From positions 1 through 35,448 of the forward strand of contig JAQYAV010000074.1 of the NCBI GenBank assembly GCA_029338675.1: a DNA stretch of 35,448 nt. Direction: 5' to 3'. The notes under the pieces are model-generated. The model had not been told where the DNA came from. It searched no databases and was given only the letters and a program-made list of their open reading frames with translations. The position numbers and the translations under genes were made by a program. Shown here piece by piece: positions 9,745 through 13,623 of the stretch (the stretch's first letter is position 1; every line of letters starts with the position of its first letter). This DNA is from Lachnospiraceae bacterium (GTDB lineage Bacteria; Bacillota; Clostridia; Lachnospirales; Lachnospiraceae).

Positions 9745-11589
9745 ATGAATTATAAGAGTATAAAGCGCTGTTTTATTACTTTGCTTGTTATGGTTTGCTT
9801 ATTGCTTCCTATAACATATAGTTTTGATGTGTTAGCTGCATCGACTGGAGAGATTTCTGCGGGGGTAACAAGTGTTTATTTTAGAGAGTCTCCTGGAGGT
9901 ACTCCTATTAAAGATAGTAAAGGTGGTACAATTTATCTTAGTGCAGGACATAAGCTTACTATTTTAGACACGACAAATAGTAGTTGGTATAAGGTTTCGT
10001 TAGAATATTCAGGTAAGAAATATACAGGATATGTTTCCGCTCAGTTTATTACAATAACTGGTGAAGGCGGTAGTGAAAATAGCACTCCTCCATCAAATCC
10101 ATCATCGGATTCGGATTTTGAAACTAAACTTAGCAATGAAGGATTTCCAGAAAGTTATAAAGTTTTATTAAGAGAGATACATAATAGATATCCTAACTGG
10201 GAGTTTAAAGCTGTTCAGACTGGAATTGAATGGAGTACATTAGTGGAGAATGAGGTGAATAGACCAGGACAAATTAAAAACCTTATTCAAGGAACATCTT
10301 CTTATCCACATTATAATTGGCGATCTACAGGTGTAGGATATAACATTCGAAATAACTCTTGGAGCGCATTTGATGGTAGCACATGGTTTGCTGCATCAGA
10401 TAGAATTGTTGAATACTATTTGGATCCTCGAACATATTTATATGAGAATTACATATTTGTTTTCGAATGCTTATCGTATATAGAAGGTTATCAGAATCAA
10501 AAAGGTGTAGAGGCAATTTTAAGTGGTTCATTTATGGCTAATAGTACTCCTAATGATAATAATAATCTTTATTCTTCTATAATACTAGAAGCTGCTAATC
10601 AAAGTGGAGTAAGTCCATATCATATTGCTTCAAGAATTAAGCTTGAGATGGGTAATTCTGGTGGAGTTTGTTCATCAGGCAATAGCCAGTCATTCCCAGG
10701 AATATATAATTTCTATAATATTGGAGCGTATGATTCAAGTGATGGCTCAGCTGTTTACAATGGTCTTGCTTGGGCAGCATCTTCAGGAAGCTACGGAAGA
10801 CCTTGGAATTCATCATCAAAGTCAATTGTTGGTGGAGCACAGTTTCTCGGAAAATCATACATTGGAGTTGGACAGGATACACTTTATACTCAGAAGTTCA
10901 ATGTAACTAATTCAGGAAACCTATTTAGCCATCAATATATGACAAATGTTCAGGCTCCTGCAGTAGAATGTTTAACAAATTATAGAGCTTATGCAGACAA
11001 TAATTTGCTTAACTCTACTATGTATTTTAAGATTCCTGTTTACAGAAATATGCCAGAGCATGCAGTTTCTAAACCAGCTGATTCAGGTAATCCAAACAAC
11101 TGGTTAGAGTCACTTAGTATTAGTGGATATACTTTAACTCCTTCATTTGGTATTAACAATGTTACAGATTATTCACTTATTGTTAATGAAAATGTAGAGA
11201 GTATTGATATAAGTGCAAAACCAGTGTGCTCAACAACAAGTGTTTCAGGCACAGGAAGAATTAATCTTAGTTTAGGTACTAATATAATTAAGGTTGTTGC
11301 AACCTCTCAAAGTGGAAATACAAGAACATATACATTATCCGTAGTAAGAGGAAAAGCCTCAACACCTGGTACAGAAAATAACGTACAGAGTGGTTCAAGG
11401 GGAGATTTGAATGGAGATGGAAAAATCTCAGCAAAGGACATTGTATGCGTTCAAAGATTAATTGTTGGTTTAGATGAGCTAAATGATTCGTCTTTAGCTA
11501 AGGCTGACTTAAATGGAGATGGAAAAGTATCAGCAAAGGATATTGTTGTTCTTCAAAGACATATTGTTGGTTTGGAATATATACAATAG
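9745..11589 (+). CDS. secreted SH3/glucosaminidase/cadherin-like/dockerin protein (putative peptidoglycan hydrolase)
   Basis: A 614-residue exported protein. Residues 1-32 are a signal peptide (cleavage near LAAS). An SH3-like domain (about 36-106) and a Ser/Pro linker follow. The catalytic region (about 130-440) resembles LytD-type endo-beta-N-acetylglucosaminidases, with SPYHIASRIKLEMG and likely catalytic Glu301, and YNFYNIGAYDSS. Then come a cadherin-like beta-sandwich domain (about 452-536, start WLESLSISGYTLTPSF) and a type I dockerin (about 553-612). The dockerin has two calcium loops DLNGDGK(I/V)SAKD (554-565, 588-599), with ligand positions D, N, D and D all present. Dockerins bind cohesins, and a cohesin-like protein is encoded 42 nt downstream. 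No SLH, sortase or membrane anchor is present, so the dockerin may be its surface attachment. A dockerin on an autolysin-like enzyme rather than a carbohydrase is unusual. Confidence 0.88.
   Translation: MNYKSIKRCFITLLVMVCLLLPITYSFDVLAASTGEISAGVTSVYFRESPGGTPIKDSKGGTIYLSAGHKLTILDTTNSSWYKVSLEYSGKKYTGYVSAQFITITGEGGSENSTPPSNPSSDSDFETKLSNEGFPESYKVLLREIHNRYPNWEFKAVQTGIEWSTLVENEVNRPGQIKNLIQGTSSYPHYNWRSTGVGYNIRNNSWSAFDGSTWFAASDRIVEYYLDPRTYLYENYIFVFECLSYIEGYQNQKGVEAILSGSFMANSTPNDNNNLYSSIILEAANQSGVSPYHIASRIKLEMGNSGGVCSSGNSQSFPGIYNFYNIGAYDSSDGSAVYNGLAWAASSGSYGRPWNSSSKSIVGGAQFLGKSYIGVGQDTLYTQKFNVTNSGNLFSHQYMTNVQAPAVECLTNYRAYADNNLLNSTMYFKIPVYRNMPEHAVSKPADSGNPNNWLESLSISGYTLTPSFGINNVTDYSLIVNENVESIDISAKPVCSTTSVSGTGRINLSLGTNIIKVVATSQSGNTRTYTLSVVRGKASTPGTENNVQSGSRGDLNGDGKISAKDIVCVQRLIVGLDELNDSSLAKADLNGDGKVSAKDIVVLQRHIVGLEYIQ
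11404..11571 (+). repeat. dockerin duplicated 22-residue segments
   Basis: DNA segments 11404-11469 and 11506-11571, 102 bp apart, encode two near-identical 22-residue calcium-binding helices. Both carry Ala-Lys at loop positions 10-11, the positions that govern cohesin specificity in type I dockerins. The symmetry would permit a dual binding mode. Confidence 0.85.
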
Positions 11590-11631
11590 TTTGTTTTAAT
11601 TATATTGGTTAATATATTGAGGAGAAATACT

Positions 11632-13623
11632 ATGAAGAAATTTTATAAAAAGATAATTACATTTGTGATGGCAGTGTTAATAGGAATTAATATGTACACA
11701 TTTAATTCCTATGCGGAGGCGTACGTTTCAATGGCAGTGTCTTCATCAAAGGTTAGTGTAGGAGAAAGCATTTCTGTTACAGTTTCAATAAGCGGAAGCT
11801 TGTCTGCATATACATTGTATGTTTCGTATGATAGTGGAGTGCTCGAGTATGCAGGTTGTAGCGGTTCTGCTATAGGTAATGGTGGCGGAGGAAGTGTTAG
11901 TTTAAGTGGAACAGGAGAAGGCTCTACAACAATTTCTTTCACTGCAATTGGAAATGGCGACTCTTATATTGGTACAAGTGGAGAGGCATTTGATATAAAT
12001 GGTGATGATGTGTCTATTTCTCATGCTGGAGTGTCTGTTACTGTTGGAGCAGGTAATTCTGATTCAACAACTGAAGAGAAAAAAAATGATGAGAATGATG
12101 ACAATAAGGACGACAATAAGGACGATAAGACATCAGAGTCAACTGAAACAACAGAAAAAGAAGAGTCTTCTGATTGTAATTTATCGTCACTTTCTATAAC
12201 ACCAGGTACTCTTGAACCAGCTTTCTCGCCAGATATAACAGAATATTATGTTCACGTTGAGGAAGATGTAACAAGTATGGTTGTAAGTGCAGTTGCAGCT
12301 AATGATAAAGCAACTACTGCTGTATATGGTGCAGGATTAATTGAACCAGGTGAGAATTCAGTTAGAATTAATGTTACAGCAGCAAATGGTTCGGTTAAGG
12401 TATATTCTCTTAGAGTTGTGGCAGGTAAAGAGCTTGGTGAAGCTAGTGCAACAATAAACAACACAGTATATAGATTTATTAATGATGCGAGTAAGCTAGA
12501 AAAACCAGAAGGATATTCTGAAACAACAGCAAAATATAAGGATTGGGAAGTATTAGCTTTTGAATCACCTAATAAGAAGCTTAAAATTGTTGCTCTTATG
12601 AAGGAAAAAGAATTAGATAATCCAGAGGCATCATATGAATGGTATATTATTAATGAGAAGGATGAAAGTCTTGTACCATACTTTGAATTATCTGCTCATA
12701 TGAATAAATATGTTATTATTAATAAACCAGCTAATATTGATGTTCCAGAGGGATTCAAGGAAGATAAGATTTCAATTGGTAAAAATGTTTTCACTGCATA
12801 TAAGAATGATGCAATAACAGACAAAAATATGTCATTGGTTTATGCAATGAATGTTGAAGGGGAAGAGGGATTTTATTTATTTGATTCAAAGGAAGTTACT
12901 TTCATGAGATTCTTCCCAGTAATAATTAAAGAAGAGGTTATATTAACAGCAACTGATGATGCAACACCTCTTACACCTACAACAGTTAACAAACCAAATA
13001 ATAATCCAGATAATTCAAAAACTATTTTATTATACAGCTCAATTTGTCTTGGAGTGTTATTGGTGCTTATGACTGGTTGGCTGATTTTGACTAAGATTAG
13101 TAAGTCGAAGATGAAAGAAGAACTACGAAAAGCTGATGATATGGTAACTCAGCTTGCTGCAGTAAATAATACAGTAAATAAAGACGTTCTTGCAAGTGTG
13201 GAGACTATTGAAGAAGAATCAAAGAAAGATAAGAAGAATAAAAAGAATTCTGATTCTTCCCAAAAAGATAAGAAGGATTTAGATAAAGTAGCAGTAGAAG
13301 TGGCTGCTTCGAAGGAAGCTGATCAAGCTACTGCTTCAAAGAAAGCTGACAATTCTTCAGAAGCTAATAATTCAATAAAAGCTCTTAATGCTGATGTTGC
13401 CTCTGTAAAAGAGGATGTTAAGGCTGATGCTGCCTCTGGAAAAGAAGATAAAAAAAGTACTTCTTATGAGAATATGTTAGATGATGACAAGGAATTAAAG
13501 GATATCATGGATATGGTTATATCTGAAGTAAAGCATGCTGGAATTAAGGACGATGAAGAAAAGAAAGATGAAGGATATAACGCAGAATTAGATAGTGCAT
13601 TTATTGATACAGATAATAAATAG
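11632..13623 (+). CDS. single-pass membrane protein with cohesin-like and cadherin-like ectodomains
   Basis: A 663-residue protein. A signal peptide (1-29, YAEA) is followed by a cohesin-like domain (about 31-140): VSVGESISVTVSISG, LYVSYDSGVLEYAG, then Gly-rich strands and SHAGVSVTV. It is about 110 residues, shorter than typical cohesins of about 140. A charged Asp/Asn/Lys linker (141-180) leads to a cadherin-like beta-sandwich (182-265, LSSLSITPGTLEPAFSP), of the same family as in the dockerin protein. A less recognisable extracellular region (266-462) and one membrane helix (464-487) follow. The long cytoplasmic tail (488-663) has very high Lys/Glu/Asp/Ala content and low complexity. The start is ATG 11632 with GAGGAG at 11619-11624; the in-frame TTG 11605 is less likely. 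The cohesin call rests on motif pattern and on the dockerin neighbour. Confidence 0.8.
   Translation: MKKFYKKIITFVMAVLIGINMYTFNSYAEAYVSMAVSSSKVSVGESISVTVSISGSLSAYTLYVSYDSGVLEYAGCSGSAIGNGGGGSVSLSGTGEGSTTISFTAIGNGDSYIGTSGEAFDINGDDVSISHAGVSVTVGAGNSDSTTEEKKNDENDDNKDDNKDDKTSESTETTEKEESSDCNLSSLSITPGTLEPAFSPDITEYYVHVEEDVTSMVVSAVAANDKATTAVYGAGLIEPGENSVRINVTAANGSVKVYSLRVVAGKELGEASATINNTVYRFINDASKLEKPEGYSETTAKYKDWEVLAFESPNKKLKIVALMKEKELDNPEASYEWYIINEKDESLVPYFELSAHMNKYVIINKPANIDVPEGFKEDKISIGKNVFTAYKNDAITDKNMSLVYAMNVEGEEGFYLFDSKEVTFMRFFPVIIKEEVILTATDDATPLTPTTVNKPNNNPDNSKTILLYSSICLGVLLVLMTGWLILTKISKSKMKEELRKADDMVTQLAAVNNTVNKDVLASVETIEEESKKDKKNKKNSDSSQKDKKDLDKVAVEVAASKEADQATASKKADNSSEANNSIKALNADVASVKEDVKADAASGKEDKKSTSYENMLDDDKELKDIMDMVISEVKHAGIKDDEEKKDEGYNAELDSAFIDTDNK

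Follow-up and report, generated by a model that had tools for sequence, protein, structure and literature searches.

How might a secreted cell wall hydrolase that has no anchor of its own be kept at the cell surface, and what purpose would a dockerin at its C-terminus serve when the next gene encodes a membrane protein that begins with a cohesin? The question is raised by two adjacent genes, referred to here as A and B, in a Lachnospiraceae bacterium (GenBank assembly GCA_029338675.1, contig JAQYAV010000074.1). The window, i.e., the whole stretch of DNA that was analyzed, is 35,448 nucleotides (nt) long and represents one contig of a 2.85 Mb genome in 171 contigs. Most of what is known about cohesin–dockerin pairing comes from complexes that degrade plant polymers or starch. 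We propose that A and B probably form a dedicated cohesin–dockerin tether, which would keep a wall glycosidase on the outer side of the membrane in a manner akin to SagB–SpdC of Staphylococcus aureus. This tether is supported by the domain identities, the adjacency of the two genes, their one-to-one counts in most genomes of the genus, and one matched replacement of the two modules. Genes A and B were confirmed as open reading frames (ORFs) on the same strand with 42 nt between them, and their features are as follows (aa, amino acids).

9745..11589, + strand: gene A, predicted exported SagB-like glucosaminidase with a C-terminal dockerin, 614 aa (ORF, Pfam, NCBIfam, PDB profile)
9745..9840, + strand: signal peptide of A, about residues 1-32, cleavage site placed by eye (sequence, hydrophobic run)
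9937..10050, + strand: bacterial SH3 domain (SH3_3) of A, Pfam-matched residues 65-102 (Pfam)
10108..11064, + strand: glucosaminidase catalytic domain of A, SagB-like, about residues 122-440 (NCBIfam, PDB profile, alignment)
11110..11349, + strand: Cadherin-like domain (PF12733) of A, residues 456-535 (Pfam)
11401..11565, + strand: type I dockerin of A, two calcium loops with identical SAKD stretches (Pfam, sequence)
11619..11624, + strand: GAGGAG, resembling a ribosome-binding site, seven bases 5' of the ATG of gene B (sequence)
11632..13623, + strand: gene B, predicted membrane protein with an N-terminal cohesin, 663 aa (ORF, Pfam)
11632..11718, + strand: signal peptide of B, about residues 1-29, placed by eye (sequence)
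11719..12054, + strand: cohesin domain of B (Pfam, PDB profile, genus profile search)
12181..12417, + strand: Cadherin-like domain (PF12733) of B, residues 184-262 (Pfam)
12445..12921, + strand: conserved domain of unknown function of B, tentatively referred to as "bct" (core), about residues 272-430 (alignment, profile)
13042..13098, + strand: transmembrane helix of B, residues 471-489 (hydropathy)
13099..13620, + strand: long charged, presumably cytoplasmic tail of B, 174 aa with 43 D/E and 32 K/R (sequence)
13576..13620, + strand: C-terminal peptide YNAELDSAFIDTDNK of B, with a DS[AV]F motif common to many relatives (sequence)

In A, residues 553-607 match Dockerin_1 (PF00404) at 2.1e-12 and 47.5 bits, against a cut-off of 22.9, and the two calcium loops, DLNGDGKISAKD and DLNGDGKVSAKD, both read DLNGDGK[IV]SAKD, with D, N, D, and D at the ligand positions 1, 3, 5, and 12 respectively. 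In a PDB profile search, the dockerin part of the A1 profile matches the xylanase Y dockerin of 1ohz/2ccl. In the catalytic region, residues 126-442 remain without a Pfam match up to an E-value of 10, and the NCBIfam SagB model is matched at 3.7e-12, yet with 46 bits, far below its cut-off of 425 bits. The A1 profile nevertheless finds 6fxp (2.4e-16) and 6u0o_B (3.3e-16), the latter of which we take to be SagB, as well as autolysin glucosaminidases. Glu301 is almost invariant in the alignment of A proteins and, judging from the family, is presumably the catalytic residue. The only hydrophobic run in A is its signal peptide. An earlier annotation of this DNA from its letters alone (the sequence-only reading) had described A as an exported protein with SH3, glucosaminidase, cadherin-like, and intact type I dockerin domains, a wall hydrolase as cargo, and no further surface anchor, all of which agrees with the matches above.

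Protein B has one strong hydrophobic helix (residues 471-489) apart from its signal peptide. The cohesin fold is a nine-strand jelly-roll. In the N-terminal part of B, a cohesin was neither reported in the Pfam scan of the whole protein nor matched significantly in a PDB search with the single domain sequence. The isolated domain, however, scores 27.4 bits against PF00963 (cut-off 24.1), a weak but real match, and a profile built from 60 relatives of B (A3) finds solved cohesins as all of its top matches in PDB (best 3l8q, 4.4e-9). Further, 55 of the 60 rows of the A3 profile match the Pfam Cohesin family individually (E 0.01). Among 37 genomes of the genus, PF00963 matches 18, with gene B being the match in 15 of those, while the A3 profile matches 35. 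We therefore take the domain to be a cohesin, an assignment that is weak for the single protein and firm for the family. This bears out the sequence-only reading, which had placed B 42 nt downstream of A, given it a cohesin-like start and a single membrane helix, and proposed the comparison with cohesin structures.

Based on these domains, A would be secreted as a SagB-like N-acetylglucosaminidase, and its calcium-loaded C-terminal dockerin would dock with the cohesin located at B's tip. As B is predicted to be fixed in the membrane by one helix, A would be held at the outer membrane face, where it may trim new peptidoglycan strands, similar to S. aureus SagB, which is held and tuned by the membrane protein SpdC. 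The dockerin could bind in either of two orientations, because both of its repeats carry the same recognition residues. Cellulosomal type I dockerins bind in either of two orientations, and repeat symmetry of this kind goes with dual binding. Such symmetry extends to the relatives of A. Between the two repeats of one dockerin, the recognition triplet agrees at 73% of positions, compared to 24% after shuffling the repeats among 33 distinct pairs (72 of 74 dockerins readable). Across 71 dockerins, the excess of repeat identity is largest at positions 9-11, 13-15, 17, 18, and 21, smaller at 2, 3, 7, and 20, and absent at 4, 8, 16, and 19 and at the ligand positions 1, 5, and 12, in shuffles that ignore relatedness. 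The symmetric positions are presumably the recognition positions of cellulosomal dockerins. We infer binding, calcium dependence, catalysis, and strand trimming alike, and the pair may serve in wall growth or separation.

Within the genus, the two genes stay together. A and B are each present in 35 of the 37 genomes (the two misses are 71% and 64% complete), and they are adjacent on the same strand in all 32 A loci examined. The sequence-only reading would have been undermined by relatives that mostly carry one gene without the other, which is not the pattern of the genus. Exactly one dockerin is encoded in 30 of the 37 genomes, at least two in five (three in G000, two in G020, four in G021, two in G022, and four in G032), and none in the two incomplete ones. 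More than one match to the cohesin profile occurs in six genomes (G006, G008, G021, G022, G035, and G036), in the first of which a contig end splits B. Comparing the coordinates by hand, we found exactly one dockerin and one cohesin in 26 of the 37 genomes, and they are neighbors in all 26; the source genome, with three dockerin matches, is not among them.

Beyond the genus, we used the best 80 of 98 relatives, which partly come from the same genomes as the genus set; together with the window and G019 they give a named set of 82 A proteins. Their database labels range from Eubacterium ruminantium through Erysipelotrichaceae and other Bacilli. A dockerin is present in 74 of the 82, and a cohesin-like B follows A in all of the 80 loci except three, i.e., in 77 (the exceptions are L109, which lies at a contig edge, L151, and L169; in L144 the match is short). 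In 28 hand-picked genomes of these relatives, Pfam detects one dockerin in 13, none in 5, and more than one in 10.

A different kind of evidence comes from G022, G035, and G036 (loci L139, L140, and L136 respectively), in which A carries another type of dockerin, placed between the SH3 and catalytic domains, and B has lost its cadherin-like domain and kept its cohesin. We built trees from 51 hand-picked rows (58 columns for the dockerin); the groups were named after the distances had been seen, so the p-values of the approximately unbiased test (p-AU) are not blind. The dockerin (support 97) and the cohesin (100/100) of these three genomes group with L142/L146, whereas their catalytic domain (98) and bct (99) group with L124/L112. 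Grouping with L124/L112 is rejected for the dockerin (p-AU 0.0014) and the cohesin (p-AU 6.7e-14), and grouping with L142/L146 is rejected for the catalytic domain (p-AU 1.5e-46) and bct (p-AU 0.00044). By these placements, the enzyme and the membrane protein kept their ancestry while dockerin and cohesin changed together. A second candidate replacement, in L157, was dropped as the trees give it no support. An identical 20/31 split in the dockerin and cohesin trees was likewise rejected as independent proof, since the catalytic and core trees allow it (p-AU 0.121 and 0.115).

Co-variation of the domains is suggestive of pairing, although it is neither proof nor specific. All five domains are present in 72 of the 82 rows, of which 57 were left after thinning, and domain distances were correlated after removing the distance of the catalytic domain. 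Over the 57 rows, dockerin–cohesin gives 0.354, the highest of six domain pairs, compared to 0.331 for dockerin–bct, 0.293 for cohesin–cadherin of A, 0.261 and 0.243 for two others, and -0.048 for dockerin–cadherin of A. In the 32 rows with QR-type dockerins, dockerin–cohesin rises to 0.673, while the two other pairings of the dockerin give 0.068 and 0.087. This signal is driven by one clade, whose dockerins read NYKD and whose cohesins have diverged strongly (the NYK clade); in the 25 non-QR rows dockerin–cohesin is again the highest pair (0.455). PF12733 is indeed found in both proteins, as the sequence-only reading had noted, but its argument that a shared fold implies joint evolution is weak, given the negative value above and the three genomes that keep the cohesin without the cadherin-like domain of B.

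We then looked at a family sample of 150 genomes, one per genus, in which catalytic A matches were picked by hand among the matches listed (to about 1e-11). These comprise at least 79 A loci in at least 73 genomes, with both dockerin and cohesin in 27 loci, cohesin only in 27, dockerin only in 3, and neither in 22. In one of the cohesin-only loci (L220), a more sensitive profile finds a dockerin. Pfam dockerins occur in 53 of the 150 genomes and exactly once in 38 (counts made without the dockerin-rich G091, G162, and G204, which have 9, 27, and 22 respectively). In 22 of the 38, the single dockerin ends 116-247 nt upstream of a same-strand cohesin (median 147.5 nt), which is also the single cohesin match of the genome. 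The only Pfam dockerin of another genome, G177 (L251), is carried by a PF01832 glucosaminidase that directly precedes B. The catalytic part of this enzyme has no significant BLAST match to 96 A proteins (8 weak overlaps, best E 0.063), while its dockerin region is 37-54% identical to A dockerins in the eight best matches.

A number of observations weigh against a dedicated tether. In the family sample, 27 of the 54 A loci with an adjacent cohesin (among the matches listed) have no Pfam dockerin, and neither do 45 of the 88 genomes with such a cohesin; together with the dockerin-less A loci, this led us to reject strict dockerin–cohesin coupling across the family. In the named set, a dockerin is missing from 8 of the 82 A proteins, six of which still neighbor a cohesin-like B, three of them (L150, L152, and L162) in genomes without any Pfam dockerin. 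The matched replacement is firmly supported only once. Five of the six domain pairs, all except dockerin–cadherin, reach p 0.001 over the 57 rows, and without the NYK clade (27 rows) dockerin–cohesin (0.309) falls below cohesin–cadherin (0.629), cadherin–bct (0.458), and cohesin–bct (0.442), with dockerin–cadherin at 0.206 and dockerin–bct at 0.041. Finally, another protein of the source genome also carries a dockerin, and A and B may thus not be exclusive partners. The "self-contained pair" of the sequence-only reading thus gains from its conservation, its one-to-one counts in most relatives, and the matched replacement, but it is not general in the family, nor is A the only dockerin protein of its own genome.

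Among the dockerin-less pairs of the named set, B has no membrane helix in four of six. A link between dockerin loss and helix loss was rejected, as 40 of 43 cohesin ORFs in the family loci have a helix.

The counts across the family bear most directly on the strongest alternative, that the cohesin-like domain of B is a receptor of older origin and mainly binds something other than a dockerin (e.g., a peptide tail, part of a wall polymer, or a ligase), with the dockerin of A being a lineage-specific addition. We regard this as a serious possibility, somewhat short of probable. It is favored by the 45 genomes that match the same cohesin profile without a Pfam dockerin and by what stands upstream of B when A is absent. 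The upstream gene was read for 16 of the 40 cohesin places without A nearby (among the matches listed), and it encodes a LytR-CpsA-Psr protein in 11 (six called by Pfam, the rest by similarity), a PF01832 glucosaminidase in 2, and something other or unclear in 3. The B homologs directly 3' of LytR-CpsA-Psr ligase genes are those in L211-L215, L217, L218, L252, and L255-L257, and in all but one of these 11 genomes (10) Pfam detects no dockerin. It is also favored by a C-terminal tail resembling PGGSNVTIVP, which follows a low-complexity linker in 7 of 31 A proteins of the family loci, all dockerin-less (L236-L239 and L241-L243). Against it stand the one-to-one counts in 26 of the 37 genus genomes and the joint replacement in one lineage. 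Because of the LytR-CpsA-Psr-linked and dockerin-less cohesins, the cohesin-like domain probably either predates the dockerin on A or is independent of it, and B probably belongs to an older envelope receptor family that has dockerin docking as one mode. Such a history for the family can be compatible with a dedicated tether in the window.

A broader version, which we offer tentatively and consider rather doubtful, is that B is a widespread transmembrane hub for envelope remodeling in Lachnospiraceae and some Bacilli, whose cohesin would recruit interchangeable wall enzymes (a SagB-like or PF01832 glucosaminidase or a LytR-CpsA-Psr ligase), by a dockerin in some lineages and by other means, e.g., a PGGSNVTIVP-like tail, in others, and whose acidic cytoplasmic peptide would couple it to the cell interior. 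An acidic peptide is frequent at the C-terminus of B proteins, presumably on the cytoplasmic side (YNAELDSAFIDTDNK in the window; DDDFEFIDL-like and similar in L211-L258), and the DS[AV]F motif lies near the end of 27 of 43 QR-type B proteins. This conserved acidic or DS[AV]F end hints at a cytoplasmic partner.

Less likely is that B is a shared receptor, or mini-scaffold, for several dockerin proteins rather than private to A. Of the three dockerin matches in the source genome, one is A and another is a second full dockerin on a CHAP-like protein (L005:5305-6231, - strand; CHAP below the Pfam cut-off). The two to four dockerins in G020, G021, G022, and G032 point in the same direction. However, the dockerin repeats of the CHAP-like protein are unlike each other and differ from those of A (SAAD and DLRD, vs. 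SAKD twice), a single dockerin is the rule in 30 of the 37 genus genomes, and B has only one cohesin. That cohesin is also the one match in the source genome by both PF00963 and the A3 profile, and no multi-cohesin scaffoldin was seen there with either. A cellulosome would combine a multi-cohesin scaffoldin with several dockerin-bearing polysaccharide enzymes, whereas this genome has one cohesin, and full dockerins only on a glucosaminidase and a CHAP-like protein. The third match is a half-dockerin relic of 27 residues between two genes (L006:4693-4773, - strand), apparently from a decayed gene.

It is improbable that A and B are merely co-expressed envelope genes whose domains do not bind and whose shared changes reflect local recombination, for although dockerin and cohesin usually meet at the gene junction (as in the 22 family pairs above), where one recombination tract could carry both, and although co-variation extends to further domain pairs across A and B, in G022, G035, and G036 both modules changed with the dockerin away from the junction, another enzyme carries the dockerin in G177, and the repeat symmetry, despite shuffles blind to relatedness, fits selection for binding.

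The dedicated tether resembles several known systems in part. Like the cellulosomal type I pairs (1ohz/2ccl), A and B have a dockerin of the same family with the same calcium loops and a duplicated recognition surface, and a cohesin of the same Pfam family. Unlike them, they combine one cohesin with a peptidoglycan glycosidase as cargo and a single-helix membrane receptor, with no scaffoldin or plant-polymer enzyme in the pair. In Ruminococcus albus, which is said to have many dockerins, a single cohesin is described as anchoring isolated dockerin enzymes, and attachment to the cell surface was proposed (PMC6118326). A and B similarly involve a lone cohesin for surface attachment rather than complex building, but as neighbors, with one of each in most genomes of the genus. 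For R. champanellensis, a "lyticome" was proposed from wall hydrolases that bear dockerins, described together with a scaffoldin of this cellulosomal species (PMC6403190), while no scaffoldin was found in the genome of A and B. In S. aureus, SagB–SpdC is described in a review as cleaving nascent peptidoglycan from its membrane lipid anchor, with SpdC being integral to the membrane and belonging to the CAAX protease family (PMC12272431). The likeness lies in a SagB-like glucosaminidase (matched below the SagB model cut-off) with a proposed membrane protein partner; B differs from SpdC in having one helix, a cohesin, and no CAAX-protease Pfam match.

Dockerin-bearing wall hydrolases (PMC6403190) and a single anchoring cohesin (PMC6118326) are already in print. 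A partial survey of the literature found no description of a neighboring cohesin–dockerin pair dedicated to a housekeeping glucosaminidase. If our proposal is correct, the cohesin–dockerin module would gain another role in bacteria of gut and rumen, this one cellular, in which neighboring partners that are often the sole such pair of their genome position a housekeeping peptidoglycan hydrolase. The pair also suggests how, in the absence of a known SpdC-like partner, a secreted glycosidase may stay at the membrane. The diverged and co-replaced natural pairs could further serve to read cohesin–dockerin specificity.

By Pfam, the gene order around the pair is cysteinyl-tRNA synthetase, RNase III-like protein, SpoU methylase, sigma factor, A, B, DUF2225, and a protein without a Pfam match, and ten further window ORFs that were scanned include a chaperonin, a tRNA synthetase, and an M16 peptidase. 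No scaffoldin or glycoside hydrolase was found among the 18 scanned of the 40 window ORFs of at least 80 aa, in line with the earlier remark that no scaffoldin or plant-polymer glycoside hydrolase is near.

Two further observations concern dockerins elsewhere. In L125, L126, L128, L133, L134, L153, and L157, most calcium ligands of the second dockerin repeat have been lost (AANVKKSGS-like). L087 (G021) and L088 (G020) encode secreted proteins that are large, rich in repeats, and almost identical in their dockerins; close by is a membrane protein with a weak, below-cut-off cohesin match and a PKTG-like end, and these may possibly form a separate cohesin–dockerin set.

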